DNA of 64,000 nucleotides from Streptomyces sp. Je 1-332 (GTDB lineage: Bacteria; Actinomycetota; Actinomycetes; Streptomycetales; Streptomycetaceae): NCBI RefSeq assembly GCF_040730185.1, contig NZ_CP160402.1, forward strand, positions 1-64,000, written 5' to 3'. Both the position numbers and the translations under genes were made by a program. Positions 1 through 14,265 of the stretch are shown here, in pieces (within the stretch, counting starts at the first letter, position 1; every line of letters begins with the position of its first letter). The notes below the pieces were generated by a model. That model was given only the letters and a program-made list of their open reading frames with translations, was not told the DNA's origin and did not search any database.

Positions 1-7
1 GCGCGCG

Positions 8-166
8 GTCTGCTCCGCAGACACAACGCGCCGCCGCTACGCGGCGGAAGAGGCGCAGCGCTCCGCGCTGCTGGCCGGCCACTCCGTGGCCGCCGTGGCC
101 AACTCCGTTGGCCACGGCTCGAATCGCTCCGCGATTCGAGCCAGCGGAATCCGCTCCGCGGATTCC
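8..166. repeat. Telomere-like array of seven GC-rich hairpins
   Basis: Seven consecutive perfect or near-perfect inverted repeats fill this stretch with almost no spacer: 8-22, 31-47, 55-71, 76-92, 93-117, 118-140 and 146-166. Stems are 6 to 11 bp. Six loops are exactly TCC and one is TAC. Streptomyces linear replicon ends carry such a series of palindromes with 3-nt loops in the first ~170-200 bp; they fold on the 3' single-stranded overhang and are bound by the Tap/Tpg capping proteins. The archetypal first palindrome (CCCGCGGAGCGGG) is not present, so either the outermost bases are missing from this window or this is a non-archetypal telomere class. The telomere call is inference from architecture, supported by the terminal helicase and tap/tpg-like genes nearby. 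Confidence 0.75.
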
Positions 167-361
167 TTAAAGTGCAGCTACAGAAGGGAGTCTGATGGCC
201 CGGCACCTTGCTCGGCGGACCGAGGTGACGGACCCCCTCGCGACCTGAGCTGTGACGGTCGTACCGGTTGGGCACTCCCTCAAGGTGCAGGAAGGTTCGC
301 CCTCTGGGTCTCAGCGTAGCCGAGTTGGCGCCGTTCCTCTGCTTTTTGGATGCAGAAAAAT
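167..361. other. Subtelomeric non-coding gap
   Basis: This is the stretch between the hairpin array and the 3' end of the terminal helicase gene. A reading frame can be drawn on the plus strand through the hairpins, but it is a by-product of the palindromes and resembles no protein. I see no RNA gene or further palindrome series here. Confidence 0.5.
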
Positions 362-2893
362 CTAAGTGATCTCCGGGAGATCGGGGCAGTCCTCTCCGGC
401 CGTGCTGGAGGGTACGGTCCAGTTCTCGCGGAGGATCTCTTGCATCAACTTGCTTTGCTCTTCGGCTAGTTGATCGTTCTTATGCTTGGTGCGCGTCTTG
501 GACAGCCACGGGCCGATCATGACGCGCTCGCCGTCCACCTCGATCCACTCCCGGGCGCCGGGCGGTCGGCCGTGCCGCTCAACGAAGGCCCGGAGCAGCG
601 TCGTGTGCTGCTCGAAGGAACGGCGGCGCCGTGGACCAGTGGACGGGATAACGGCCTTGGGGGCGGGGAGCGGGATCTGGTCGGGGGTCAGGCCGAGGCG
701 GGTGAGGAGATCGCGTTGGCCGGGGTCGAGCTGGGACCAGGTAGTGAACTGGCGGTGTAGCCAGGATCCGGCTTTCACTCCGCCGACCATCGTGTCGCGG
801 CGCAGCGTGGCTGGGTGGTTACCGGCCTCGATGTGGTGGTGCAGGAGGTGGTATTTGCGGTGCCAGTCCGGGCCGTACGGAAGCGTCCAGGTGGGGTCGA
901 GGGCGGTGAGTTGGGCTTCGCGGTTGGAGTTGAGGAGTTGTTTGCGGGCGAGGCCGCGGCAGTTGACGAGGAACTGGCCGCCGGGGGCGGTGGCGGGGAT
1001 GGCGAGGTGGCCGTGTTCTTCGTGGAAGGCTTCGAGGGTGGCCAGGTTGGCTTGCCAGGCGGCTTCGTTGTCGTCCCAGACCATGCCGAGGTCTTCTAGT
1101 TCGGAGATCCAGCCAGAGTCGAGAACGCCCTGGTGGTAGGCGGTGCGTTGCCCGGTGATGAAGGCGCCGAGGCGGTAGCCGTAGGCGTCTTCGAAGTCTG
1201 CGGGGACGCGTAGGTGATGGTGTTCTTCGTGGTAGCGGATGGCGGCGGCCAGTCCGGCGCGGCGGGGTTGGGAGAGGGCTGCGCCGGTGGCGGGCCAGGC
1301 GATGAGGTCCATCGTGCGGGCGATATGTTCGGGGTCGAGGGTGAAGTCGAAGCGGAAACGGCGCGCGAGGAGTCGGTGGGTGTCGCGGTCCAGGCGGTGC
1401 TTGGTGTTCTTTCTGGGGGCGCGGGCGGCGATGGTCTGGTCGTGGCGGCGTAGGGCTGCGGTGACGAGCCACAGCGCCTCGTAGGGGGTGCCCAGGAGGT
1501 CGGTGGGGTCGGCGCCAGGCGGGATGTGGGCGGGGATGACCAGGCTGGCCGTCTTGTGGTCGACGGTCGGGGGCTTGCGCAGGGCGCGGCCGAGGGACTG
1601 GACGATGCGGCGCACGCTGGCGGTGCGGTCGGCGAAGACGACGGCGTCCACGGCCGGCAGGTCGATACCCTCGCCCAGGACCTGGGCGTTGGTCAGGATG
1701 CCGTGGTTGGCGGCGATGAAGCGGCCCTGGATCCTCTGGCGCTGGTCGGGGGTGTGAGTGCCGTTGATCGACTGCACGACCAGGTCCGCGGCCCAGGCGG
1801 GGCACTGCTCTTTGGGGAGGGTGCGCAGGGTGTGGGCGAACTGGCGGGCGAAGTCGGCTGCGTCGGCGACCTGCTGGAAGTAGACGATCACATGGTGGAG
1901 GTCGTGGTCGTTCATGGCCTTGAGGACGGCCAGGTGCAGCGCTGTGGTCCGGCGGGCGTTGGGGCCGAAGCTGGTGCGCAGGTCTGGGTCGGTCAGGACG
2001 GTGCGCAGGTCGGTGTCGGTGACTGTGGGGATGAGGAGCTGGTAGTCGGCCAGGACGCCGTCGTCGATGGCATCGGCGTGGGAGTAGGTGTGCAGGCGTT
2101 TCCCGAAGACCTTGGGGTCGTCCATGGAAGCGATCATTGAGGGGGCCTCCCACGCAGGCGCGGTCGCGGCGGTGCGCTTTGGTTGGGGGCGCTGGTCCGG
2201 GGCTTCGGCCAGGCGGGGGGCTTCCCACTCGTAGGGGGTGGCGGTCAGGTAGAGACGGCGGTCGGCGGGGATGCGCTGGTTATCGTGCAGGGTCGTCCAG
2301 CGTTTGTCCCAGCTGCCTGCAGTGCGGTGCGCCTCGTCCACGATCAGCAGATCGAAGACGGGTGCGGGGAAGGAGGAGCGCTGGGTCTCCTCGATCCGGG
2401 GCAGGGAGTCCAGGGTGACGAACACGGTCGCCTTCTCGTGCCGACTAAGCCAGTACGCCAGGAACGCACCCGAACCCGTACTCACCGCTCCCGCCTTTGC
2501 GAGCAGGGGATGCTTGTCCGCGCGCAGCGAGGAGATGGCCATCAGCGGCTCTGTGCGGCCATCCGCGCGAGCAGCCTGGGCCCACTGGCCGATCAGGTCC
2601 AAAGACGGTACGGCGATGAGGAGACGGGCGGTATCGAGCTCCTCGGCGGTGCGCAGCGCGATCAGCGTCTTGCCGGTGCCGCACGCGGAGACCATGTGGC
2701 CGCGCGTACCCGGCTTCCTCAGCCCGCGTACCCCGCTGTCCACCGCCGCCTGCTGATCCGGCCGCAGCACCCGGCGGGGGGTGTTGGGGTCAGAGGCGGG
2801 GCGCGGGGCCGCGGGCTGGGGACTGGGGCTTGGGGGCATCACCACGGATAACCTCGGGCTCACGGCGGCATGGTCGTGCCCATCCTCCCTCAC
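362..2893 (-). CDS. ttrA: Terminal (telomere-proximal) DEAD/DEAH helicase, TtrA-type
   Basis: Superfamily 2 helicase of about 840 residues, transcribed toward the replicon end. Walker A (CGTGKT) is near residues 71-76, DEAH at 186-189, motif III (TAT) at 217-219, and the motif V/VI region ending QSLGRALR lies near 431-438. The C-terminal third (about 550-760) has repeated Trp/His-rich segments (for example FHEEHGHLAIP) typical of helicase-associated domains. TtrA-type helicases with this layout are usually the last gene at Streptomyces chromosome and linear-plasmid ends and have been linked to conjugal transfer of linear replicons. The start is uncertain: the ATG at 2893 is used, but a second ATG 18 codons downstream also precedes the conserved part. 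Position and orientation support the assignment; identity with ttrA is inferred. Confidence 0.75.
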   Translation of the reverse strand: MREDGHDHAAVSPRLSVVMPPSPSPQPAAPRPASDPNTPRRVLRPDQQAAVDSGVRGLRKPGTRGHMVSACGTGKTLIALRTAEELDTARLLIAVPSLDLIGQWAQAARADGRTEPLMAISSLRADKHPLLAKAGAVSTGSGAFLAYWLSRHEKATVFVTLDSLPRIEETQRSSFPAPVFDLLIVDEAHRTAGSWDKRWTTLHDNQRIPADRRLYLTATPYEWEAPRLAEAPDQRPQPKRTAATAPAWEAPSMIASMDDPKVFGKRLHTYSHADAIDDGVLADYQLLIPTVTDTDLRTVLTDPDLRTSFGPNARRTTALHLAVLKAMNDHDLHHVIVYFQQVADAADFARQFAHTLRTLPKEQCPAWAADLVVQSINGTHTPDQRQRIQGRFIAANHGILTNAQVLGEGIDLPAVDAVVFADRTASVRRIVQSLGRALRKPPTVDHKTASLVIPAHIPPGADPTDLLGTPYEALWLVTAALRRHDQTIAARAPRKNTKHRLDRDTHRLLARRFRFDFTLDPEHIARTMDLIAWPATGAALSQPRRAGLAAAIRYHEEHHHLRVPADFEDAYGYRLGAFITGQRTAYHQGVLDSGWISELEDLGMVWDDNEAAWQANLATLEAFHEEHGHLAIPATAPGGQFLVNCRGLARKQLLNSNREAQLTALDPTWTLPYGPDWHRKYHLLHHHIEAGNHPATLRRDTMVGGVKAGSWLHRQFTTWSQLDPGQRDLLTRLGLTPDQIPLPAPKAVIPSTGPRRRRSFEQHTTLLRAFVERHGRPPGAREWIEVDGERVMIGPWLSKTRTKHKNDQLAEEQSKLMQEILRENWTVPSSTAGEDCPDLPEIT

Positions 2894-2918
2894 TCGGCAC
2901 AGGCTGTGCGGGGGTACC

Positions 2919-3545
2919 TCAGGGTGGTGTGGTGCCGGGCTGAGACGGGACGGGTACTGGTGGGATGGTGGCGGGTACGGTCTGTTCAGCGAGTTTGCGG
3001 TAGCCGGTCGTAGTGAGGGAGCGCCAGGCGCGGTAGAAGCCGAAGGCGGTCGCTGCGCCGAGGGCGGTGGTAGCGCCCAGGATGAGTGGGCGGTGCTCGA
3101 AGGAGTAGCGCAGCATGGCCAGGTCTGCGGTGAGGGTCAGGGCCAGGGTGTTGAGAGTCCATCCGCGGCAGATCCGCATGCGGGAGCGCGCGTAGTCCGC
3201 CCGGGCTGCCAAGACCGGGAAGTCGGCCAGGCGCAAGCGCGCTTGGGCGTAGGCGGTGTTGGAGGGGAAGAAGCGGGTGCGCAGCCGACGGCGGTGCGGC
3301 GTGAGGGCGGTATCGGCCGCCCGGTCGATGGGGATGCCCAGGGCGTAGGCGGCGGCGAGCGCTACTCCGGCCGCCGCGGAGGAGCCCGCGAGGGGGGCGA
3401 GTTTGGCCGTGGTAGCTGGGCCGATCAGAGCGACGAGGAGGAGCACGGCTGCGGTGAGCGCGCCGATGCCGACCACGAGGACCTCGATGAACATCGCGGT
3501 GGCGGCCACGAGGGCTGGGGGCTCGGGCTGTGTTGGGCTCGTCAT
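2919..3545 (-). CDS. Multi-pass membrane protein, third gene of the NA37-RelA/SpoT operon
   Basis: A 208-residue protein with four likely membrane segments, near residues 18-46, 50-75, 130-148 and 155-172, separated by an Arg-rich cytoplasmic region (about 80-125). I do not recognise a named family. Its ATG overlaps the stop of the RelA/SpoT-domain gene (ATGA at 3542-3545), so the two are almost certainly translationally coupled and work together. In nucleotide-signalled conflict systems a nucleotide synthetase is often paired with a membrane effector, which makes an effector or pore role plausible. That is inference; nothing in the sequence proves toxicity. The C-terminus is Pro/Thr-rich and probably disordered. 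Confidence 0.75.
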   Translation of the reverse strand: MTSPTQPEPPALVAATAMFIEVLVVGIGALTAAVLLLVALIGPATTAKLAPLAGSSAAAGVALAAAYALGIPIDRAADTALTPHRRRLRTRFFPSNTAYAQARLRLADFPVLAARADYARSRMRICRGWTLNTLALTLTADLAMLRYSFEHRPLILGATTALGAATAFGFYRAWRSLTTTGYRKLAEQTVPATIPPVPVPSQPGTTPP

Positions 3546-4597
3546 AGGGCGACTCCCCAGATCTGGGCCATGTCGGTGATCATGCTGTCCGGTAGCTCGC
3601 TGTTCTTCCAGGCGATGTGCAGGTCGAAGCGGGAACGGATCTGGGATAGCCGTTCAAAGATGATCAGGCTTTCTGGCTGGCTGGCCAGCAGGTAGCGGCC
3701 GTGCTTGAGGAAAAGGGCGCTGGTGGGTCCGTACTCGGTGTAGGCACGTTCGAGACGCTCGCGGAAGCGTTTGGTGAACTGGGTGAGTTGCTCGCTGTAG
3801 GCGGTGGTGTCATCGATGGTCTGGGAGAGGGTGTCGATGACTTCGTGGGACAGGTCGGTGCTGTAGGGGTGGTCAGTGAAGGTGCGGTAGATCTGTTCGG
3901 CCGTGTTGAGGAGGTGGTTGCTGTGTGCAAGGTCGGGGTGCTGTGCCATGGCTTCCACCCCCCGTTCGACCTCGAGGTCGAATAGTTCGACCAGGGCAAT
4001 CAGACGGTACAGCGAGCGTCTGACATCGGGGGGTGGGGTGACGCCGGGCTTGTAGAGAAGCTTGTGGGACATGCGTGACCACAAGTCGACGGCCTCGGTG
4101 CGTAGTTGGATCTCACAGTCGTACGGGTTGCCGTCGGGGTCTTCTTCCCTGCCGACCATGACGGCTTGGATGTGCAGGCGGGGGTAGCGCAGGCGGTCCT
4201 CGTCGCCGGGGGTGTCCCGGTCGTCCTCTACCCACCGGACGTCAAGGCACTCTTTGATCATTTTCAGGGCGGGGTCGAGCAGACCTCTGTGGGGCACGAT
4301 GACGCGTACGCCGGCTTTGTCGGTGATTTCCTTCCAGGGGTCGGTGTAGCCCTTGCGGTACATCTTCGTGTTGAAGCCGCTGACCTCCTTGGCGCGGGCG
4401 GTTACCTCGCAGGCAATCCCGCGGAGGGCAATGTGATGCTCCAGGTGTGCCTTGGTCGCCTCGGCTGCCTTTTCGATGCGGGGTCGTTCGTGTTGATAGC
4501 GCTGGAAGGCTTCATCGGCGCTCAGGGGCACGGCTGACCCAGCCAAGCGTTGGGGAGGGTGCCGCGGAACGTCACGTCTGGGCCGGTGGGAGCGCAT
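3542..4597 (-). CDS. RelA/SpoT-domain nucleotide synthetase
   Basis: A 351-residue protein with a RelA/SpoT (p)ppGpp synthetase fold and no HD hydrolase, TGS or ACT domain, so it belongs with the small alarmone synthetases or toxic SAS proteins. Expected synthetase features are visible: basic motif R68/K70-S73-K78, the D93-G96-R98 motif, YPRLH at 138-142, and the EIQLRT motif at 162-167 followed by H178 and YK at 182-183. The C-terminal half is helical and unrecognised. The 5' end overlaps the upstream NA37-like gene by 26 bp and the 3' end overlaps the membrane-protein gene by 4 bp, so all three form one coupled operon. An alternative GTG start lies at 4531. It may make or transfer pyrophosphate onto a nucleotide or tRNA; the substrate cannot be read from sequence. 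Confidence 0.85.
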   Translation of the reverse strand: MRSHRPRRDVPRHPPQRLAGSAVPLSADEAFQRYQHERPRIEKAAEATKAHLEHHIALRGIACEVTARAKEVSGFNTKMYRKGYTDPWKEITDKAGVRVIVPHRGLLDPALKMIKECLDVRWVEDDRDTPGDEDRLRYPRLHIQAVMVGREEDPDGNPYDCEIQLRTEAVDLWSRMSHKLLYKPGVTPPPDVRRSLYRLIALVELFDLEVERGVEAMAQHPDLAHSNHLLNTAEQIYRTFTDHPYSTDLSHEVIDTLSQTIDDTTAYSEQLTQFTKRFRERLERAYTEYGPTSALFLKHGRYLLASQPESLIIFERLSQIRSRFDLHIAWKNSELPDSMITDMAQIWGVAL

Positions 4598-5759
4598 GTC
4601 CGTTGTGGGCAGGCGTGGCTTTTTTGGGGAGGGCGCGGATTGTCTCGAATCCAGGAAGTGTCTCGGCCTGGATGGGCAACTCGGGGCGCTGAGTGGGTGG
4701 TTTGGGAGGGCGGCCCGCTGTTGCTCCGCTGCTGGTCTTGGTGACGGTCGAGGTGACTGTCACCGTCGTCCGGCCGTCGCCGAGGTCCTCTACTTGGATG
4801 GTTCCGTCCTGCATGGCTTCTACCGGGGCGACTAGGAAGGCACCGTTGGACAGGTCCACCCGCATCTTCTGGAGCCTGTTGCTGATGAGCTCGGTGTTCT
4901 TCTCGAAAGTGCCGATAGGGACGTCGTTTTCGGCAAGGAATGCGGCAAGGTCGGCCTGGTGCGCGTCGCGCAAGTGGGTGCGGATGAACTCCGTGGGGTC
5001 CACTGTCGGGGTGGGGCTCTGGAGTTCCACCATAGTGGCCAGCACGTAGTTCATACGGGTGTCTGAGTCCGTGCAGCGGCTGTTGACCCAGTTCATCGCG
5101 GTGTCGTGGAAGCGGCGGGTCAGTTCCCTGGGGTCGTTTTGATGCCGACAGCCCAGGAACTTCTCGAGGAAGAAGCGGGCCACGTCCTTGCCCGTTGTCT
5201 GGGGGTCTGCAGCCCATCCCTGAAGCCCTGGTTCAGCCAGCCCCTCTTCGGAGAAGAGGGCTACTTTGTACACCTTGGATTTCTGGGTGAGCAGGAGGTC
5301 ATCGAGGTACTGCATGGCGAAGGTGCGCAGGCCGTCGGTGACGATCTCGTTGGTCTGCATGCCGGTCTCGTGCTCGAGTTTGACCATCAGCAGCGCCTGC
5401 TGGCCGTCCAGGCGGGCGGAGGCGACCAAGAGAAGCCCGGCCGGGCTGTTTCCTCCTTGGCTGTCGCGCAGTGCGTGTGCCAGTTCCCCGGAGACTTGGA
5501 CGAGGTCCTGTTCAGTGTCGAGGAAGGCGCGGACCGTGTCGGGCAGGGGGGATTTGAGTTCCGGGTCCTCGATGACCTCGCGCCCCAGACGGGCGAAGAC
5601 GTCACGCAGTTTGCCCTGGAGTTCGTAGCGCACGTCTTCGTCCAGGCGGCAGAACGTCTGGCTGAGCTGGAGCGGAAAGAGCTCCTCGTTCTGGGTGCGT
5701 CTGGGCACTATGTGGACGATGGCCTGGTCCACGACGAGGTCCCCGAAGTCGGTCCGCAC
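4572..5759 (-). CDS. NA37/YejK-like nucleoid-associated protein
   Basis: A protein of about 395 residues from the GTG at 5759. The same frame stays open to an ATG at 5924, but those 55 residues are low-complexity and look untranslated. The N-terminal 230 residues resemble the NA37 (YejK/NdpA) family: the opening VDQAIVHIV, a segment with a conserved FARL, the stretch ending GLLLVASARLDG, and QALLMVKLEHETG. The remainder carries a Thr-rich tail (TVTVTSTVTKTSS). YejK proteins bind the nucleoid in E. coli. In actinomycetes, stand-alone copies on accessory DNA are poorly understood. As first gene of a coupled operon with a RelA/SpoT synthetase and a membrane protein it could be the sensor or the DNA-binding regulator of that system. 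Family call is moderate; the role is inferred. Confidence 0.65.
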   Translation of the reverse strand: MRTDFGDLVVDQAIVHIVPRRTQNEELFPLQLSQTFCRLDEDVRYELQGKLRDVFARLGREVIEDPELKSPLPDTVRAFLDTEQDLVQVSGELAHALRDSQGGNSPAGLLLVASARLDGQQALLMVKLEHETGMQTNEIVTDGLRTFAMQYLDDLLLTQKSKVYKVALFSEEGLAEPGLQGWAADPQTTGKDVARFFLEKFLGCRHQNDPRELTRRFHDTAMNWVNSRCTDSDTRMNYVLATMVELQSPTPTVDPTEFIRTHLRDAHQADLAAFLAENDVPIGTFEKNTELISNRLQKMRVDLSNGAFLVAPVEAMQDGTIQVEDLGDGRTTVTVTSTVTKTSSGATAGRPPKPPTQRPELPIQAETLPGFETIRALPKKATPAHNGHALPPAQT

Positions 5760-6179
5760 TGCCCACCCCACGCATCCCGCCCGCACCCCCGTAGGCCGGA
5801 CGCATTGTCGCCAGACGCAGTCCGGAGCGGAGCTAGCCCGTCCCGCGGCGTACGTCTGTGCGGCATCACCTGGCCCGGGGCGGGGCGGGCCGGTTCTGGG
5901 CCTGTCCGTGTCACGTGCCAACAATCTTGCCGCTCATCGTAACGGAGCGTACGAAGGCCATGGCAGGGATACCGGGAGTGGTGGCTGAACTTCAATGGTG
6001 GGCCAGGGCATGTGTGAGCTGTCGCCTGTGCCGGGATCGACACAGAGGAGCATCCTCTATGAGCTTGTCCTGCGAAGCTGAATAGCGGTTGAAGCGGCAG
6101 GGGCGGACTCAAGATCAGGCGGGTTCATCACCGCATCGAGAAGGCATGCGTGGTCGTGGCGGCTGCTGCCGCCCCGCGC
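5760..6179. other. Intergenic region upstream of the NA37 operon
   Basis: About 420 bp between the GTG chosen for the NA37-like gene and a broken gene to the right. It should contain the promoter for the minus-strand three-gene operon, but I could not pick out a convincing -35/-10 pair. No intact gene or RNA gene is seen. Confidence 0.4.
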
Positions 6180-7027
6180 CTAGGGTGTCGTGTCGGGTGG
6201 TTCCAGGATCGGGTTCCAGGCGAACCGGCCCAAGTTCTCGTCGCCCAGTTCCCATGGGGATTCCAGCAGCAGTTTCCGGGTTGTCCCAAGGTCCGTGGTG
6301 ACGAAAGCGGGGGCGGGACCGATACGGGTCATCAGGTCACCCCATTCGTGGAGGAAATCCTCGTCCTCGCCGCGCAGTCGGCGCATCGCCGCTTCCACGC
6401 AGGCAGGCCATTTCGGCATACCGTAGTGGCGGCTGTTGGTCCCGATGCGGGGAGCGCCGGCAAAGAGGAGGAAGTCGTCTGGCGGCAGTCGCTTCTCGAA
6501 GTGCCTGAACATGTCTATGTGCTGTTTCGCCTGTTTCTTGATTCTCCGAGGAATCCCCAGCCGAAGTCCTTCAGAGTCCGCTCGCATCCCGGCCAGACCA
6601 TGTCCCGGTCCAGGATCAGGTCCTCCAGTGCGTAGAGACGGAACGGGTCATCGGAGCCCAGAACGTCGAACGCCTGCCGGGTGTGCCAGGTGTTGCGGGC
6701 GAATATCGTCCCGTCGCGCAATGCCTTGCGCCGGCTGGTGGGTCGAGAGGCGTGCGCGTCCTCGATCGGACCGTTGCGCCAGACGGACAGGACGAGACCG
6801 TGGGCCGCCGCCCACCGCAGTCCGTCCTGCGTCCCGAAGACACCCATCTCCTCAAGGCGTTGCCGCGCCCAGTCCGATGTGTCCTGGATGTCCTCGTCCA
6901 CCGGCTGCCTCTCCCCCCATGGTTCTCCGCACTCCTCGATTCGAATTTTCGGTGTTCCTGTCCAGCCACGCGGCGCAGGTGCCTGCGAGAAGTCAGTCCA
7001 GGCCGGGCCCCGGCGCCTGGGTGCCAC
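6180..7027 (-). pseudogene. Hypothetical protein gene broken by a frameshift near 6515-6587
   Basis: Two overlapping minus-strand reading frames read as one protein: 6515-7027 (170 residues, ending around CERTLKDFGWGF) and 6180-6587 (135 residues, resuming at RRIKKQAKQH). Joining them gives a protein of about 280 residues with normal high-GC codon use in both halves. I do not recognise the family. The first half is acidic with WARQRLEEMG and SDDPFRLYALEDLI segments; the second has HFEKRLPPDDFLLFAG. The 5' end overlaps the GNAT gene upstream by 35 bp, so they were probably one operon. A sequencing error would give the same picture as a true frameshift. Confidence 0.5.
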
Positions 7028-7799
7028 TTTCTCTCGTAGTCACGCCGTCCGCCGGGCCGCTCTCAGGCGGGCCGGACCGCTGGAAGGCTGCGCTGAGCGC
7101 GTGCAGTTCGGCACGGCGAGCCCGTATGAGCTCCTCTGGCTGGCGCAGAGCGGTGTCCAGGAGCCACACGCCACGGCGGAACGGCTGAAAGCCGATGCTC
7201 TCCCACAGTGCGGCGACCTTCTTCTTCACATGGCGGCGATATGCCTCGGTGGCCTGCTCACGGTCTTCGGGGTACTCACCCATGGCCGGATAGACCGCGA
7301 CCGCGCAGCAACCCCCGGACAGACGGCGGATCGCTTCGGCCGCCAGAGCCGGGCCCAGTCCGAAGCCCCTCCACACCTTGTCGAGGCTGACGCGGTCGAG
7401 GAGCAGCAGATCGCCGACAGGATGAGTGACCGCTTTCTCGAACGCAGCGCTATAGCCGTCGCGTCCGGATCGGCCCAGGGCAGCGGAAGCAATGACCTCG
7501 AGATCGCCGGACTCGGCGTCCGCCGCCTCCCACCGGTTCTCGCCGGTGTAGTCGCGCAGCCTCCACAGAATGAGGTGCCCGACCTCGGTACCCGCAGCCG
7601 GAGCGTGGCTGTCCCCGTCCTCCTCGTCGTCCCACTCCTCGTCGCCCGCCTGCCCGTGGGTGACCGCGACGTACCAGGATTCCAGCGTGTCCTCAAAGTC
7701 GTAGGGCACCGCAGGGTGTCCGTGACCGTAGTGGAGGTGAAGACGGGCGGGGTCGCCCGGGAGCTCGGTGACCGGCCGTTTGGGCCTCGCTGATGGCAT
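6993..7799 (-). CDS. GNAT-like acetyltransferase
   Basis: A 268-residue protein from the ATG at 7799. The frame stays open upstream but without protein-like character. The central part carries the GNAT acetyl-CoA-binding signature: a beta strand (LLLLDRVSLD) followed by VWRGFGLGPALAAEAI, then CAVAVYPAMGE, and a C-terminal segment with ALWESIGFQP. An acidic loop (EEWDDEEDGD) separates the N-terminal strand region from the core. The substrate is unknown. The 3' end runs 35 bp into the next, broken gene. The N-terminus is unusual for GNATs, so a two-domain or divergent member is possible. Confidence 0.6.
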   Translation of the reverse strand: MPSARPKRPVTELPGDPARLHLHYGHGHPAVPYDFEDTLESWYVAVTHGQAGDEEWDDEEDGDSHAPAAGTEVGHLILWRLRDYTGENRWEAADAESGDLEVIASAALGRSGRDGYSAAFEKAVTHPVGDLLLLDRVSLDKVWRGFGLGPALAAEAIRRLSGGCCAVAVYPAMGEYPEDREQATEAYRRHVKKKVAALWESIGFQPFRRGVWLLDTALRQPEELIRARRAELHALSAAFQRSGPPESGPADGVTTRESGTQAPGPGLD

Positions 7800-8116
7800 G
7801 GCGGAGAGACTAGAAGCGGGCACTGACACCGCACCGGGAAACGGGAGTCCAGGGGGCGGGCGCGGTGAGGCCGGGGGCCGGTCACTGGTAGAGGAAGTCT
7901 GTCCAGCACACCTGGAGTCCGGCGACCAGGGGGACGGCGGTGTCCGCTGCCTCTCGGTGGCCGAGGGGCGGAAGAGGGTGTCCGCCGTCGCGTCTTCGTC
8001 GACAAGCTCGGCCGCGCCTTCACCACCAACGAGTACGCGGGCCGCTCGCACGCCGTGCCGGGCACTCGCACACGTAGCCCAGCGGGCACGCAACGGGCGG
8101 GCGCCCCTGAAATGCG
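7800..8116. other. Gap with a short protein-like remnant
   Basis: About 315 bp with no intact gene. A plus-strand stretch near 7980-8075 translates to RRRVFVDKLGRAFTTNEYAG, which looks like the decayed end of a real protein that I cannot name. The rest has no structure that I can identify. Confidence 0.35.
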
Positions 8117-8152
8117 GCAGGGTCCGGATCCTCTAATGGATCCGGACCCTGC
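8117..8152 (-). terminator. Strong hairpin terminator downstream of the initiator tRNA
   Basis: A perfect 15-bp inverted repeat (8117-8131 with 8138-8152) with a 6-nt loop (tctaat) lies 7 bp past the 3' end of the minus-strand tRNA. No T-tract follows, as is usual for high-GC actinomycete terminators. Confidence 0.8.
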
Positions 8153-8159
8153 TCGGCAG

Positions 8160-8233
8160 TAGCGGGGACAGGATTTGAACCTGCGACCTCTGGGTTATGA
8201 GCCCAGCGAGCTACCGAGCTGCTCCACCCCGCG
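8160..8233 (-). tRNA. tRNA-fMet(CAT), initiator
   Basis: A 74-nt cloverleaf on the minus strand. The acceptor 5' strand CGCGGGG pairs with CCCCGC but leaves an unpaired first base, the hallmark of bacterial initiator tRNA. The anticodon stem-loop is GGGCTCATAACCC, with three G:C pairs next to the CAT anticodon, also typical of initiators. The T loop is GTTCAAATC and the discriminator is A; CCA is not encoded. It lies 58 bp downstream of the tpg-like gene. An initiator tRNA within 9 kb of a telomere is unusual, and tRNA genes are common attachment sites, so it may mark an old recombination boundary. Confidence 0.93.
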
Positions 8234-8291
8234 TCGGTGAAGCCAACCGTACGCCATCCCGCGAGGTCCGCAGACCACCTCCGGCCAGGGG

Positions 8292-8864
8292 CTATGCAGC
8301 GAAGCCGACGTTGGTGCAGTACTCGTACGCTCCGTACTGGGACCCCAGATCAGGCAGGATGTCGTCGGTCCAGGCCGCGTCCAAGCCATGGTGGTCACCG
8401 GCCGCCCACGCGCCGACGATCCGGTCCCAGCGGCGCACGTTCATGTGCCGGAAGGGAATGTCGCGCTGCAGCGGGCGGGCGACGCCGGACTGGTTGAGGG
8501 GGTGGATCTCCACCCTGGTGCCGCCGTTCGCGTTGAGGCGCTTGAGCAGGTGCCGGGCCACGTTCTGCCGGCGCACCACCCGGTAGGCGTCCTCGATCTT
8601 CTTCAGGTTCTTCGCCGAGGGGTGGCGCTTGCCCTCCAGCCACGCCTTCAGCGTGCGGTCGGTCACCATCAGCCCGGCATCCCGGGCGGCCTGACGGGCG
8701 TGGTCGGACCTCGTCAGATAGTTCAGGCGCGCCATCAGACCGCGCTTCGCGGTGATGGGGGTGGCGATGCCGCCGGCGAGGTCGTCGAGCTTTTGCCCGA
8801 CGAGTTCACTTCCCCTGACACCGCTCGCGCCGAACTTTCCGAAGTCATTGTTCCTCTCCGGCAT
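8292..8864 (-). CDS. tpg: Tpg-like telomere terminal protein
   Basis: A 190-residue basic protein, close to the 184-185 residues usual for Streptomyces terminal proteins (Tpg), which become covalently attached to the 5' end and prime end-patching. The order of segments matches archetypal Tpg: an N-terminal helix then a T/RPI motif (ATPITAKRG here), an RLNYL segment, a helix-turn-helix (TDRTLKAWLEGKRHP), a basic helix (RVVRRQNVARHLLKRL), a GG-V-I segment (GGTRVEIHPL), and a C-terminal acidic helix. Sequence identity to the archetype appears low, so this would be a divergent class. The start ATG touches the stop of the tap-like gene, exactly the tap-tpg arrangement. Confidence rests on layout and context, not on an alignment score. 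Confidence 0.65.
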   Translation of the reverse strand: MPERNNDFGKFGASGVRGSELVGQKLDDLAGGIATPITAKRGLMARLNYLTRSDHARQAARDAGLMVTDRTLKAWLEGKRHPSAKNLKKIEDAYRVVRRQNVARHLLKRLNANGGTRVEIHPLNQSGVARPLQRDIPFRHMNVRRWDRIVGAWAAGDHHGLDAAWTDDILPDLGSQYGAYEYCTNVGFAA

Positions 8865-10376
8865 CTACTGCTCCTCCCCCATCGTGTCGGTGCCCGCGGT
8901 GTAGAGGTCTTTGACCTTGACCTCGGTAACCCCACGGCCTTCGGGGAAGACACGGCGCCAGTCGCCGATGACGTGGAGTTCGTCGGTGCCCATCGCTCGG
9001 ACGACGGCGAGTCCTTCGTCGTGGGCTTTGAGCGCCTTCATCCAGAGGTTGGCGAAGGCCTGGGATCGGATGATGTGCATCCAGTCCGGCCGGTACAGCT
9101 CCCGGTTGTAGTTCGACTCCCCCATGGTGGAGACGAACTTCGAGTACATCGCCTTCACGTACTCCAGGGTCACCGCGTCGCCGTCGGCGATGGCGGTGTC
9201 GCGGGCGTCCTTGAGCGTGATGCGGAACTTCTCCAGCAGGTTCTCCGTCGCCCCCGATGTATAGGACTCGTGGACTTCCGGCGCCTCGCACAGCCCGTGC
9301 TTCGGGCTGGACAGGCGCAGCAGGAGACGCAGGGTGGGTTCGGTGACCCATAGGGGCCCGGGTTCGTCGCGCTCGCCGATCGGGTTGGGCAGCACGGCGT
9401 CGTACTCCCAGGCGGGTGGGGTGATCAGGTGGACTCCGGCGCGGCGGCCGTCGTGCGGCATGCCGGTGGTGTGCTCGAGCTGCCCGAGCGGCAGATGAGT
9501 CTTGAGGGCGGACAGATAGGCGCCGTTGATGTCCAGTGCCGTCACCTCATGAACGCCGGGCGGCAGTTCGGCGCGGGTCCACTTGGGGCGGGCCTCCCAG
9601 ATCTGGTCCGCGCCCCGGGAGGTCTGCTTCTTCAGGATGTCGGGAATTGCGGGGTGGGCGATCACGTCGTACCGGGCGCCCTTGCGGGTCTCGTCCAGCA
9701 AGCGCATCGCGTCCCCGATCGCCTTCTTCAACAGCGCCGCGGTGGCCGCTTCCACATCGCCCTGGTGCTCGGCGAGCGCTCCCTCAACCGCCGCATGGAT
9801 CAAGCCCACCGGGCCTGACGGCTCCTGGAATGCCCGGCGGGCCGGGCCCTTGGCACGCTCCGACGGCTTCGAGGCGGGGGCGGACCGGTCGGCGACCGGG
9901 GCTGGCTGCGCCTCGACTGTGCTGTCCTGGCATTCGGCTGGGTCCAGGTGCTGAGCGAAGCCCTCCACCCGCCGCCCGGCCGGACGCCCGCACAGCACAC
10001 ACGGCTCCGGCACGGTGAGTACCTCGACTTCGTCCCCGCCCTCGGGCTCGGGCTCGGCTGCAGCGGCGGCATCCGCTGCGACGGGCTCGGCCGCAGTGGA
10101 CTCCGCCGCCGGCTCGATTTCGGGCGTGGTGTCGGCGGCGAGCTTGGCGCTCAACCCGTCCAGGAGGTAGGCGTACTTGACGCGCACCTCGCCGGCCGGA
10201 TCCCGGCCGGCTTCCCAGGCGCTGACCGTGGAAGGGCTCACCCCGAGGGCGCGGGCCACCTGCGCCTTGGACAGCTGAGCCTGCTCGCGCAAGGCGCGGC
10301 GGGCCTGGGCGTCTGGGAGGTCGGTCTGCGGGCCGACAGAGGCGAGGAGCGAGTCGATCGCGTCGAAATCACTCAC
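8865..10376 (-). CDS. tap: Tap-like telomere-associated protein (XRE HTH plus polymerase-like domain)
   Basis: A 503-residue protein from the GTG at 10376, which has AAGGGAG eight bases upstream; an in-frame ATG at 10484 is less likely. Residues about 25-60 form an XRE helix-turn-helix (ALGVSPSTVSAWEAG). An Ala/Glu/Pro linker leads to a possible zinc site (C126, C129, H143, C149). The C-terminal half starts with LDINGAYLSAL, which parallels the D-N-A-(F/Y)-L-A-A motif of known Tap proteins and resembles a family-B polymerase metal motif. It is followed by PGPLWVTEPTL and RPDWMHIIRSQAFANLWMK. Tap binds the telomere overhang and recruits Tpg. It is shorter than archetypal Tap (about 740 residues). 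The stop codon abuts the tpg-like start, giving a coupled operon. Confidence 0.7.
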   Translation of the reverse strand: MSDFDAIDSLLASVGPQTDLPDAQARRALREQAQLSKAQVARALGVSPSTVSAWEAGRDPAGEVRVKYAYLLDGLSAKLAADTTPEIEPAAESTAAEPVAADAAAAAEPEPEGGDEVEVLTVPEPCVLCGRPAGRRVEGFAQHLDPAECQDSTVEAQPAPVADRSAPASKPSERAKGPARRAFQEPSGPVGLIHAAVEGALAEHQGDVEAATAALLKKAIGDAMRLLDETRKGARYDVIAHPAIPDILKKQTSRGADQIWEARPKWTRAELPPGVHEVTALDINGAYLSALKTHLPLGQLEHTTGMPHDGRRAGVHLITPPAWEYDAVLPNPIGERDEPGPLWVTEPTLRLLLRLSSPKHGLCEAPEVHESYTSGATENLLEKFRITLKDARDTAIADGDAVTLEYVKAMYSKFVSTMGESNYNRELYRPDWMHIIRSQAFANLWMKALKAHDEGLAVVRAMGTDELHVIGDWRRVFPEGRGVTEVKVKDLYTAGTDTMGEEQ

Positions 10377-10389
10377 CGGAACGCTCCCT

Positions 10390-10722
10390 TCAGATGTAGG
10401 TGACGGGGTTGCGAGACAGGTGCGGACTCTTGGTGGCACGGCCGACACGGTCGTCGCCGCGCAGCAGCTCTCCCTGGAGGGCATAGCGGTTACCGTGCTT
10501 GGAGATCCCGGTGATCGTCGCCACGGCGAGGACAGTGCCTTCGGCGTTGATGATCTGCACCTCGTCCTGGGACAGCGCGCGGTCGGCGTTGAACTTCCAG
10601 ATACCGCGGCCGGCCTGCCATGCCTCGTCCTCGCTCATGCCAGAGCGCCATCCGATGGTCGACCGCCCGAGCACGTCGTCCGGACCCGCCTCGCGCTCGG
10701 GACCGATCTGGATCTGCAACAC
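10390..10722 (-). CDS. Small conserved protein upstream of tap/tpg-like genes
   Basis: A 110-residue protein of unknown function. It has a predicted beta-rich C-terminal half (DEVQIINAEGTVLAVATITG, then KHGNRYALQGELL) and a basic tail. The N-terminus contains DVLGRSTIGWRSGMSEDEAW. It ends 13 bp before the GTG of the tap-like gene and so is the first gene of a three-gene unit. Its role in end maintenance is unknown, but co-transcription suggests an accessory or regulatory function. Confidence 0.7.
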   Translation of the reverse strand: MLQIQIGPEREAGPDDVLGRSTIGWRSGMSEDEAWQAGRGIWKFNADRALSQDEVQIINAEGTVLAVATITGISKHGNRYALQGELLRGDDRVGRATKSPHLSRNPVTYI

Positions 10723-10751
10723 CCGTCCGCCTCCCAGAACCTGAACTCTTC

Positions 10752-10767
10752 AACTTGTCACCAAGTT
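10752..10767. promoter_or_regulatory. Perfect palindrome upstream of the tap/tpg-like operon
   Basis: AACTTG-TCAC-CAAGTT is a perfect 6+4+6 inverted repeat 30 bp upstream of the first gene of the operon. Further half-sites (AAACTT, ACAAGTT) lie at 10780-10800. The Tap-like protein carries an XRE HTH, so autoregulation is plausible but inferred. Confidence 0.4.
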
Positions 10768-10833
10768 ACCATCCGAGCGTGAAACTTCGCAACAAGTTCG
10801 GAAGTACCCAACTCGATTGGCTCCAGCACGACT

Positions 10834-11133
10834 TCACTGCTCAGCCCCTCGACGCGAAGGAGGCACACGCCATGGCCAAGGCGTCAGCGAAGTACTGCGC
10901 GGCATCCGCGCCGGAACCTGCTCCACCTGCCACGAGGTCTCGGCCAGCTTGGACTTGGCGATCTTCTTGATCTCGCGCCGCTCGGGCAGCGTGAACGTCC
11001 TTGGACTGCCGCCTCGGTACCTGGGGTAGAGCGAGTCGAAGTTGTGGATCACGTTGCGGACCCGGCCCGGGCCGGTGAACGTGACCTCATCGATCTTGTC
11101 GGCGGGCATGCCCTGCGCGGACAGCGGCACCAT
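10834..11133 (-). pseudogene. IS630-family transposase fragment
   Basis: The 99-residue frame contains the N-terminal domain typical of actinomycete IS630 transposases: KIDEVTFTGPGRVRNVIHNF, then LYPRYRGGSPRTFTLPERR and EIKKIAKSKL. The DDE catalytic domain is missing, and the frame runs into unrelated sequence after SWQVEQV, so the gene is truncated. The start is also lost. It is a dead remnant. Confidence 0.75.
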
Positions 11134-11789
11134 ACGGGCCCGCCGCGAGGTTCACTACCGACCCGGTACCCCGGCGGATGATCCGCAACAGCCGCGCACC
11201 TTCGTCGTTATCGATCTCCGTCGAACCCGTTCAGCCACCAGAACGGCGTCGCCGATGCATGCCGCCCGGACCTGAACCCAGACGGCGAGTCACGGCCCCT
11301 TGTTTTCGCGGTGAAGGTGCCCGGACCACGTTCCGGCGAGGCTGCATCAAATACGTGAGCTGCACGGTGTGCAGCAGGCTTCACCACTGCCCGCATGTCA
11401 CTCGACGCCGCGCCGTGGTCATGGGGCAGCGCGCGGCGGGACTCGTGGTCATGTCATGCCCAAGGATCACGCCCGCAAGAGCAGCGCCCGCCGGCGGGCC
11501 GCCCGCACCGGATCCTCCTACACCTCCGCCAACGCCCGCACTGTGCACGAAGATCCCACTCCTACCGTCTGGCTGGCGGGACGGTCCTGGCCGCACGGAC
11601 TCGAGCAGGTCCTGCGCGACGGCGAACGGCACTGGCGGTGGTGTGCTGGCGTATGTGAGAAACCGCCGCACTCCGCATGACCCCGCCCGACAGTTGACGT
11701 GCTGCGCCTACTGCTTCGCCGTGGTGCCGGTGCGGGCCGGTGCCTGGGCGGGCGCGCCACCCGCAGCTTCGACACAGTGCAGGTCGTGG
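11134..11789. other. Decayed DNA between two transposase remnants
   Basis: About 650 bp with no intact gene. A plus-strand frame near 11460-11680 opens with MPKDHARKSSARRRAARTGS, which resembles the N-terminus of a common small actinomycete protein but breaks down afterwards. The remainder appears to be debris. Confidence 0.35.
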
Positions 11790-12782
11790 CGCAGAGCACC
11801 GCACCGCTGCCGGTACGGCCGGGGTGGGCGCCGGAGACCTTCATGGAAGACTCGGATCTTCCCTTAGAGGAACTGCTGGCCGCCGATGAGCGGTTCGCCG
11901 GTGCGGCCGCCCGGCCGGTCATCAAACCCGAGACGATCGTCGTCGACCACGGCTCACCGTTCGTCTCCGCGGACTTCACCCGCTCCTGCAACTGTCTGGA
12001 CATCGAGGTGCGCGAGGCCCGGCTGCGCACCCCCGTCGACAAGTCGATCGTCGAGCGCGCCATGCTGGCGATCAAGACCGGCTTCAGCCAGCACCTGGCC
12101 TCCTACACCCACCACCGTCTGGACCTGCGCGGCGAACAAGTCCGCAAGCAACCGCTGTGGACGATCGCGCAATTGCAGGAGCTGTTCGAGCAGTGGGTGG
12201 CGCTGCGCCGGCAGCAGACCCCGCACGGCGCCCTGCGCAGCCCGTTCACCCCGGGGCTGAAGCTCAACCCCGAACCAGATGTATGCGGCGCTGATCTCGC
12301 TGCGCGGCTACCGGGCCACGGCGCTGACCGAGAGCGAGAACCGCAAGCTGCTGCCGACCGCGTGGGTGCGCATCGACCGCACGGGCTTCCAGATCAACAA
12401 CCGCACCTGCAACCCGGACAAGGCAGGCCTGGATCCCTTCCGCGGTACCTCGGGACTCGCGGCATTCCAGGGACGCCGGGAGGTGCACTACTGCCCCAAC
12501 CACCCCGAGGCCGCCTGGCTGTTCAACCACCGGGTAGCCCCCGACGACGACCCGTGGGTGGAGGCGCCCTTCATCCACCGGCGCCTCCTGCACGACCGGT
12601 GGACCGAAGAGAGCTGCAAGGGCTGCAGGTCCATCTCGCCGCCGGCGGACATCGCCGGAACGAGGCCGCCATCGCGCGAGCCACCCATCGCCTGCTGTCC
12701 AAAGCAGCCGATGGGCCCGGGCCCGGCGACGCGCCCGCTGCCTCTGCACATGCCCTGCCCTCGCCCCACCGCCGGCCCGTGA
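11790..12782 (+). pseudogene. Mu/TnsB-type transposase remnant with frameshift near 12280
   Basis: The first frame carries the catalytic part of an integrase-core transposase: TIVVDHGSPFVSADF, then DKSIVERAMLAIKTGF and LRRQQTPHGALRSPF. After about 12280 the protein continues in another frame (MYAALISLRGYRATALTESE, then LLPTAWVRIDRTGFQINNRT), which matches the beta-barrel and C-terminal region of the same Mu/Tn7-like family. Near 12610 it shifts again and decays. The N-terminal DNA-binding domains are absent. Partner genes (ATPase, targeting protein) are not seen nearby. Confidence 0.65.
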
Positions 12783-13442
12783 CACCCAAGGAGCCCTACG
12801 CCGTCGGCATGCCGACGCGGACAGACGCGGATCGGTGGGAAAGGGTCCCAGACCTTGGCGGCCTGGAACTGGTGCGGGCTCATCCGCTGGAGTGTGCCGG
12901 TGTGGGGCATGCCGTCTTCGCCGGTGTTCCTCACCAGGAACCACAGCTCGATACCCAGATCTGCCGGTGAACGGCCCGGGAAACTCATGACAGGCCGCTT
13001 CCCTCTCGCCCAGGAAACGGGCCAAAGCCGATACTGAGCACGCCCGTACCCATGCCCGATCTGCAGCCGGGCTGGGCGTAGTAACGGCCCAGGGCGTACA
13101 GAAAGCATTCACCGGCGATGGGACACATCTCGTCACGGGCATGCAAGCCGAAATAGGACGGGCTCCGAGCGTTGGTCTCCGTCGACGCCGGCAGATGGTG
13201 CTGCGCTCCAGGCGGGCCACGGAAATGGGGCCGGCGTTTTCCGGAGGGCGTGGCCGCGGCCGTGCAACTGCCGGACGCGACCGCGCGGGACGGCGTCATG
13301 TGACCTGTGCGGGTGGCCCAGCCCCAGGGTGTCTCAGGTGGCGCACCTGTGTAGACAAGAGGCGTTCGCCGCCGATGGTTCAGGGAGCCGAAGCAGGAAC
13401 AGGGCCGTGCGGCCGTCAGCGTGGCACAGATAACCTGCGCGA
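12783..13442. other. Remnant-rich gap
   Basis: About 660 bp without an intact gene. Minus-strand stretches translate to protein-like pieces that I cannot name: GIELWFLVRNTGEDGMPHTG around 12890-12960 and ARDEMCPIAGECFLYALGRY around 13080-13140. They lie in different frames, suggesting one or more decayed genes. Confidence 0.35.
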
Positions 13443-13677
13443 ATGAAGCGCATCCAGCGGGCCGCTGGCGCGGTCGTCGGCTCAGCGGTGGGTGACGCCC
13501 TGGGCGGCCCCTTCGAGTTCGGCCCCCAGGGAGCGTTTTCCGCACGGTTTCCCGCGCCTGGTTCCGGTGACGAGATGTGCGGAGGCGGTGGCTGGGACCC
13601 CGGCGAAGCCACGGACGACACACAGATGGCCGTCCTGGTCGCGGAGTCCCTGCTGGAGCAGGGCGGACTGGATCAGC
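13443..13677 (+). pseudogene. ADP-ribosylglycohydrolase, N-terminal fragment
   Basis: The first 78 residues match the N-terminus of the ADP-ribosylglycohydrolase (DraG/ARH) family: RAAGAVVGSAVGDALGGPFE, then GGGGWDPGEATDDTQMAVLV, which includes the conserved metal-binding TDDT motif. After LLEQGGLDQP the frame runs directly into IS5-type transposase sequence, so about three quarters of the enzyme is missing. The start ATG at 13443 looks authentic. The product cannot be active. Confidence 0.75.
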
Positions 13678-14099
13678 CCTCGCTGATCACTCCGGAACAA
13701 CGGGCAGACTGCACGCAGTTCGAGCCGGTCATGGACAAGATCTACGTCCCGCGCGCGGGACGCGGCCGTCCCCGTCGCACGCCGGACAGGGGGAGCGCCG
13801 ACAAGGCGTACAGCAACCGCGAAAACCGCGCCTACCTCCACACACGCGGCATCCCGCACCTGATCTTGGAGAAGCAGAACCACAAAGCCACCCACCTGCC
13901 CCGGAGCACACGCGGCGGACGACCCCCGGGCCTCGACAAAGACCGGCACAAACACCGATACAAAGAACACAACACTGCGCAACGAGCCCCCGGCAACCGG
14001 AAACAGTTCAGAACCGCGGCCACCCACAATGACAAGCGCGGATACCTCTACCCCGGCACCGCCACCCCCGCCACACCCCACACCCGGCCCCGTTCCTGA
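13678..14099 (+). pseudogene. IS5-family transposase C-terminal remnant
   Basis: In the same frame as the truncated ADP-ribosylglycohydrolase, the sequence continues as an IS5-type DDE transposase: TQFEPVMDKIYVPR, GRGRPRRTPDRGSADKAYSN and HTRGIPHLILEK. Beyond 13930 the frame has degraded (KQFRTAATHNDKRGYLYPGT). No intact ends or target duplication are visible, so an old IS inserted here and then lost its 5' part. Confidence 0.7.
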
Positions 14100-14265
14100 T
14101 CGGACGGACACCCCCTCGTCCACGACACCCAAGACCACGCCCGCCCCTCAACTACACCCCCACCCAACAACATCAGCCCAGAGCCACCGTCGTGATGTGG
14201 GCCCGGCTTGCGGTAGTGAGCGATCCGGGTGGTTTCGCCCGGAACGCGCACTGCCGCAAGCCGCC

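Follow-up and report, generated by a model that had tools for sequence, protein, structure and literature searches.

A gene pair for an NA37 nucleoid-associated protein and a RelA/SpoT-type synthetase, with varying membrane partners, at Streptomyces chromosome ends and on proteobacterial mobile elements: a candidate defence cassette

The left end of the 8.27-Mb contig NZ_CP160402.1 of Streptomyces sp. Je 1-332, of which the first 64,000 nucleotides were analysed (hereafter, the window), carries three genes in tandem on the minus strand, encoding a YejK-like nucleoid-associated protein (NA37), a small RelA/SpoT-type synthetase (RSH) and a membrane protein (MEM), followed 25 bp beyond MEM by a helicase gene (Table 1). 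An earlier note, made from the DNA alone, had singled out this gene set as a candidate defence or stress system, and the composition that it gave was borne out: NA37 matches PF04245 with 52.0 bits, above the Pfam cut-off of 24.6, RSH matches PF04607 with 44.4 bits (cut-off 27), RelA_SpoT being its sole Pfam match, and MEM is the third gene on the same strand. The subtelomeric location also stands, the cassette lying within a terminal inverted repeat that is identical over 14,200/14,200 bp in a blastn comparison of the window with the last 14.4 kb of the chromosome. Because this repeat recurs without mismatch at the other end, the cassette is present twice per chromosome, with the second RSH copy at 8269869-8270855 on the plus strand of the right end. 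A tRNA-Met gene (8159-8233) inside the repeat is the sole tRNA gene detected in the window.

Overlapping gene ends had been claimed for the entire set, which is correct for RSH and MEM, whose genes share 4 bp (ATGA). The open reading frame (ORF) of RSH reaches back to ATG 4597, and the resulting 351-amino-acid protein is probably 22 amino acids too long, GTG 4531 being the better start, with which the starts of the close relatives (326-330 amino acids) align. Starting RSH at GTG 4531 leaves a gap of 40 bp after NA37, and an overlap of these two genes in the window was accordingly rejected after the comparison of starts; Klebsiella, Ochrobactrum and a more distantly related clade of Streptomyces do have a 4-bp NA37/RSH overlap.

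Table 1. Features of the cassette and its surroundings in the window (positions on the forward strand)
Feature	Position	Strand	Remarks
NA37, YejK-like nucleoid-associated protein	4572..5759	-	395 aa; GTG start 5759, stop 4572; first gene
RSH, small RelA/SpoT-type synthetase	3542..4531	-	329 aa; GTG start (probable); ORF reaches ATG 4597
MEM, membrane protein	2919..3545	-	208 aa; alignment of 14 loci, hydropathy; without known family
HA-domain helicase, TtrA-like class	362..2893	-	PF03457 (four stretches), ResIII, Helicase_C; optional neighbour, telomere-directed transcription
Terminal inverted repeat	1..14200	.	holds the whole cassette; identical copy at right end

Full-length RSH was found in 13 of 392 Streptomyces genomes, that of strain Je 1-332 included, and in all 13 NA37 lies directly upstream and collinear; MEM directly follows RSH in all 12 loci that allow a judgement, the 13th contig stopping inside the cassette. 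All three genes are kept in the most distant copy (locus L060), with 43% identity in RSH and a third-position GC of about 0.55. Pairwise ratios of nonsynonymous to synonymous substitution (dN/dS; NG86, five loci, some dS above 1) of 0.16-0.46 for NA37, 0.19-0.55 for RSH and 0.17-0.38 for MEM are those of genes under purifying selection. The trio also occurs in three further records, TP-A0874, S. flavotricini and a plasmid of NBC_01334, and the membrane gene of the latter (L010:7997-8606) matches in two frames, which suggests a broken gene. Protein searches at E ≤ 1e-3 yielded 234 relatives of RSH (from 3,220 candidates) and 169 of MEM (from 8,000), and the named entries among the 120 RSH and MEM relatives listed belong to Streptomyces or Kitasatospora. 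Across the Actinobacteria, NA37 is present in 34 of 396 genomes, again with the own genome included; tblastn placed RSH near none of 30 such loci, a result of little weight given that the same search missed the NA37 genes themselves. A MEM profile matched, within the 396 genomes of the phylum, the own genome, G534 (E 4e-34) and, partially and weakly, G604 (E 4e-4).

The NA37-RSH pair extends beyond the Actinobacteria. The two genes adjoin on a plasmid of Ochrobactrum quorumnocens. The RSH encoded there led to a Klebsiella plasmid, where the two stand in tandem behind a gene for a DUF4231 protein, and to two Neisseria gonorrhoeae records in which the RSH after NA37 is divided between two frames (as judged from the ORFs of one of these records). 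The complete trio was recovered from 3 of 5,426 Escherichia coli genomes by a DNA search with the Klebsiella sequence, and a search of the plasmid collection with the E. coli RSH (E ≤ 1e-20) gave four records, each with NA37 adjoining. A proteobacterial RSH profile, which collected 2,574 proteins at E ≤ 1e-10 among 8,000 scored, identified 16 loci in viral contigs, and in all 13 that encode a full-length relative NA37 lies upstream, no more than about 130 bp away as estimated from match coordinates; the three partial matches lack it there. The Streptomyces RSH profile found no relative in the viral contigs. For partial RSH matches in the plasmid collection few contexts were read (Limnohabitans, Cetobacterium and S. 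avidinii), and the stretches of the latter two have no annotated NA37. The gene after the Ochrobactrum RSH (L107:6853-10666) is a Hypoth_Ymh gene (TIGR02391, PF09509) interrupted by an IS66 element, the larger piece matching PF09509 at E 2.7e-41 and the smaller one having no match, and the gonococcal RSH (L110:6950-7959) consists of two overlapping ORFs in different frames, with no membrane gene noticed beside the pair.

What varies is the membrane partner. In all four enterobacterial loci read it is a SLATT/DUF4231 protein, matching DUF4231 above the Pfam cut-off in Klebsiella (6e-9) and E. coli KFu023 (2.5e-6); the partner in E. coli SCU-102, annotated as SLATT, matches SLATT_4 at 8e-5, below the cut-off, and the PADLOC '2TM effector' (two-transmembrane) models match enterobacterial partners at E 4e-6 and 9e-5. 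Of the 13 viral pairs, five have a SLATT-like gene ahead of NA37, and two of these five are nearly identical. Comparison of the Streptomyces proteins with their proteobacterial counterparts by hhalign gave a full-length alignment of NA37 with the E. coli, Klebsiella, Ochrobactrum and Neisseria set (probability 99.9%, E 2e-32, 334 columns) and an alignment of RSH that includes its C-terminal domain (99.1%, E 4e-19, 302 columns). For MEM and the enterobacterial SLATT/DUF4231 partner the probability was 0.2%, and, the window copy also having no Pfam match, MEM was rejected as a SLATT protein. NA37 and RSH are homologous over their full length and the two kinds of membrane protein are unrelated by sequence, so that a constant pair is joined to membrane proteins that differ. 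The co-occurrence for which the earlier note had proposed a survey is conserved, as a trio in Streptomyces; elsewhere the part that is kept is NA37 with RSH, the membrane protein being replaced by SLATT/DUF4231 or not detected.

As had been supposed from the motifs of the window copy, the synthetase residues of RSH are intact. In 10 of 10 aligned rows from Streptomyces to E. coli, the invariant positions (a selection, in the 329-amino-acid numbering) include R46, K48, K56, K60, D71, G74, R76, Y116, H120, E140, Q142, R144, H156, Y160 and K161, so that the residue set of the SYNTH domain is present, as an alignment with RelQ also indicates. The nearest solved structures are synthetases of the RelQ/RelP type (E 4e-14). 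The GYRS loop of RelQ is replaced, after a different residue, by YPR in the Streptomyces proteins (YPK in L060) and by TYQS or GYQS in proteobacteria, and because this loop varies, the acceptor nucleotide is not readable from the RSH sequence. Fourteen Protein Data Bank (PDB) entries matched RSH at E ≤ 1 and none bears a toxSAS (toxic small alarmone synthetase) name, the identity of one, 9s6k (E 0.3), not being established. Alignment with CapRel was confined to the catalytic core (hhalign probability 2%) and did not extend to the antitoxin region. In PADLOC the RSH copies tested match PDC-S33, a model for a defence candidate, with E values from 5e-4 to 6e-11. With this as its sole PADLOC match and RelA_SpoT as its sole Pfam match, the window RSH falls outside the CD-NTases of CBASS (cyclic-oligonucleotide-based anti-phage signalling system).

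RSH carries a conserved C-terminal domain (about residues 205-329), which was rejected as a feature unique to it: the domain also occurs in synthetase-less ORFs, mostly of 250-600 amino acids, of other Streptomyces. No Pfam family was assigned to any of three such proteins tested, and 20 of their loci were fetched; an HA helicase lies within the stretch in 7 of these, and neither NA37 nor MEM was found by tblastn in any. Separately, gene 42 of a Mycobacterium abscessus prophage (L083:2839-3858) encodes a 339-amino-acid synthetase that resembles RSH in its core and adjoins a divergent holin gene, with no NA37 annotated.

For NA37, no relative of solved structure was found, the best match being ribosomal protein S6 at E 0.05. 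MEM has no Pfam or NCBIfam family in the window copy, and its PDB matches are unconvincing (best E 0.7). Its rejection as a known membrane effector also covers DUF6611, a sub-threshold match (E 0.03-0.07) in two relatives only; MEM of locus L054 matches PADLOC model PDC-M48A at E 0.003. Neither NA37 nor MEM of the window gave any match at E ≤ 1 to the PADLOC 2023 models, in which no single known defence system matches all three window genes. Hydropathy supports membrane segments in MEM, three in each of two relatives and, in the window copy, a single merged stretch above threshold (residues 9-53); the four helices originally read from the sequence are therefore plausible as a count and not established. 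The alignment of 14 loci revealed an invariant glutamate (E21) in the first segment, an invariant DRAAD motif after the second and a basic loop with the motif YARSRxRxCRGW. In three rows examined, residues 73-130 contain 10-13 Lys/Arg against 4 Asp/Glu, and by the positive-inside rule the basic loop is predicted to be cytoplasmic; the conserved residues are candidates for nucleotide binding or conduction. Another actinobacterial family has a lone MEM homologue with similar motifs (L066:8147-8707), whose neighbours are a kinase-like P-loop protein and a weak NUDIX match; tblastn detected neither NA37 nor RSH there.

The surroundings of the cassette are those of mobile or subtelomeric DNA. The E. 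coli copies reside in elements at a tRNA-Thr gene, two of which carry an integrase (annotated as a pseudogene in one) and a relaxase; the third has an integrase, with PsyrA and PsyrT directly past the trio (E 7e-170 and 0). In Streptomyces, of the 11 loci in which the next gene downstream can be assessed, seven have an HA helicase there and four lack it. The window helicase may belong to the TtrA class, which its domains and near-end location fit; it is transcribed outward, whereas inward is usual for that class. Relatives of the HA helicase were also observed in 2 of 15 control subtelomeric stretches from other Streptomyces (L075:5521-7866 and L080:5675-7039).

Neighbouring defence genes, which the earlier note had suggested looking for, do occur beside some copies. 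ORFs of at least 200 amino acids around the Streptomyces trio, predicted with a crude gene caller, were compared with PADLOC at E ≤ 1e-15, and at least 13 of 60 matched, in 6 of 12 loci: JetA, JetB, three JetC, three JetD, GajA, GajB, mREase_IV, PDC-S18 and MTase_II. L049 holds JetABC, L052 PDC-S18 and the methyltransferase, L054 JetD, GajA and GajB, L056 and L057 JetC and JetD, and L060 the type IV restriction enzyme, so that Jet (Wadjet) genes accompany the trio in 4 of 12 loci and GajA/GajB (Gabija) in one. The control comprised 105 of 129 ORFs from 13 of 15 subtelomeric stretches, L081, L082 and eight edge genes being left out; edge genes were dropped from the control set and kept in the trio set, where one is a JetC. 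Among the 25 control families listed of 33, seven bear system names (PD-T4-6, mad6, PifA, C3a189, GajB, MkoA and mad3), each with one member, and none is a Jet family. Enrichment of defence genes around the Streptomyces trio, over what these control stretches contain, is no more than suggestive.

No description of an NA37-RelA/SpoT-membrane cassette was found in the open-access literature searched, in line with the earlier statement that no described system has this trio. With regard to the companion idea, that a YejK-like protein would be a new type of sensor, 42 protective E. coli units were reported in 2026, one of them with a YejK nucleoid-associated domain new to validated defence (PMC13092281). 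This DefensePredictor unit shares the NA37/YejK domain and protects E. coli from phage; the available part of that report does not name its partner genes, and the unit may or may not belong to the NA37-RSH family. Synthetases of the RelA/SpoT type with a partner gene are known from the temperate mycobacteriophage Phrann, whose gp29 (a putative synthetase, PhRel toxSAS) together with gp30 is reported to defend against phages, in a model of release upon infection (PMC9262239). Compared by description, the Phrann pair differs in that no NA37 partner is mentioned for it there and in that the window RSH has its own conserved C-terminal domain. CapRel of Salmonella phage SJ46, with a reported role in defence (PMC9712102), has a catalytic core of the same fold, but its antitoxin domain is fused, whereas NA37 is a separate protein and the alignment is limited to the core. 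In CBASS and other systems with SLATT or 2TM effectors, as in the enterobacterial cassettes, a nucleotide synthetase adjoins a 2TM SLATT-type protein, and the helices present in SLATT proteins are predicted to make toxic pores (PMC12483538); the cassette differs in having the RelA/SpoT fold and no CD-NTase, and the Streptomyces MEM is not SLATT by sequence. The RelQ/RelP alarmone synthetases share the catalytic residues of RSH. As housekeeping small alarmone synthetases, RelQ and RelP consist of a single SYNTH domain of about 210-255 amino acids with a GYRS-type loop. RSH, at 329 amino acids with a C-terminal domain and an altered loop, falls outside that description.

Taken together, the conserved pair with its intact catalytic residues, the exchange of membrane partner families and the mobile location characterize the cassette at the level of sequence, and we are inclined to interpret it, with moderate confidence, as a mobile abortive-infection module (directed against phages or other mobile elements) in which a synthetase is switched by NA37 and to which a membrane protein is often added. 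A function in defence is the firmest component of this interpretation and quite probable; that NA37 is the switch of RSH is somewhat favoured; and a nucleotide-gated membrane step is doubtful, though a genuine possibility. In the scheme that we envisage, NA37 would bind nucleic acid or replication proteins and restrain or switch RSH, and RSH, docked via its C-terminal domain, would once released make pyrophosphorylated nucleotides that bring growth to a halt. The small membrane protein would most likely receive the nucleotide signal and perturb the membrane, or else anchor the complex; both the product of RSH and this role are conjectural, and MEM may be an effector, an anchor or an antitoxin. 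A more specific version, less likely than not, is that of a linear-alarmone counterpart of CBASS, in which NA37 would sense foreign or abnormal DNA (or replication proteins) and activate RSH, whose nucleotide would open an interchangeable membrane channel, SLATT in enterobacteria and a new family with a buried glutamate and a basic loop in Streptomyces.

Several observations weigh against the interpretation as an abortive-infection module. PADLOC matches near the trio were not shown to be commoner per locus than in the control subtelomeric stretches, and Wadjet is enriched at Streptomyces chromosome ends generally (PMC10482375). By sequence RSH is nearest to RelQ/RelP, the trio is rare in E. 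coli, and no experiment on the cassette was found in the literature searched. Neither NA37 nor a membrane gene is annotated near a Limnohabitans plasmid protein that aligns with 81% of the query RSH (25.5% identity). In 8 of the 13 viral pairs no SLATT gene was detected beside NA37 and RSH, and for this reason the membrane step is not essential everywhere.

That last count also favours the strongest rival, a toxin-antitoxin pair of the toxSAS kind with a membrane protein that is not an effector: RSH alone would be the toxin, through an excess of alarmone or the pyrophosphorylation of tRNA, and would be kept inactive by NA37 or by the membrane protein as its antitoxin; the membrane protein would have no pore function. 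The tight gene overlaps in the distant Streptomyces clade, Ochrobactrum and Klebsiella suit such a pair, as does the model proposed for Phrann gp29/gp30 (PMC9262239). Against it, the match of RSH to CapRel is limited to the core and, 9s6k aside, no toxSAS name appeared among the 14 PDB matches; moreover, a role as antitoxin to one enzyme family accounts less readily for the presence of two unrelated membrane families in the third position. We consider this rival unlikely, if serious.

That the cassette serves mobile and linear replicons in stress response or maintenance, with NA37 and RSH tuning replication or growth during copying or transfer and, in Streptomyces, with a link to the HA helicase, is distinctly improbable. 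The presence of two copies in the terminal repeats, the frequent helicase neighbour and the integrases and relaxases of the E. coli elements (relaxase in two of three) would fit, and ttrA is required for SLP2 conjugation, although it is often transcribed inward (PMC8743542), opposite to the window helicase; the pair also lacks such a helicase in four Streptomyces loci and in the E. coli loci. The idea that the genes are passengers in a fast-evolving subtelomere and have no function in common, in keeping with their subtelomeric and patchy occurrence, is contradicted by the same NA37-RSH order across phyla, with the overlapping ends and the signs of purifying selection also speaking against it, and is scarcely credible.

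Alarmone synthetases in defence are mainly toxins restrained by small antitoxins. That NA37 is paired with an alarmone synthetase in organisms as far apart as Streptomyces and E. coli, and with membrane partners that are exchanged, suggests a different route by which such an enzyme is switched on, and possibly a membrane protein gated by an alarmone. Through its E. coli versions, the idea is directly testable in a laboratory strain.

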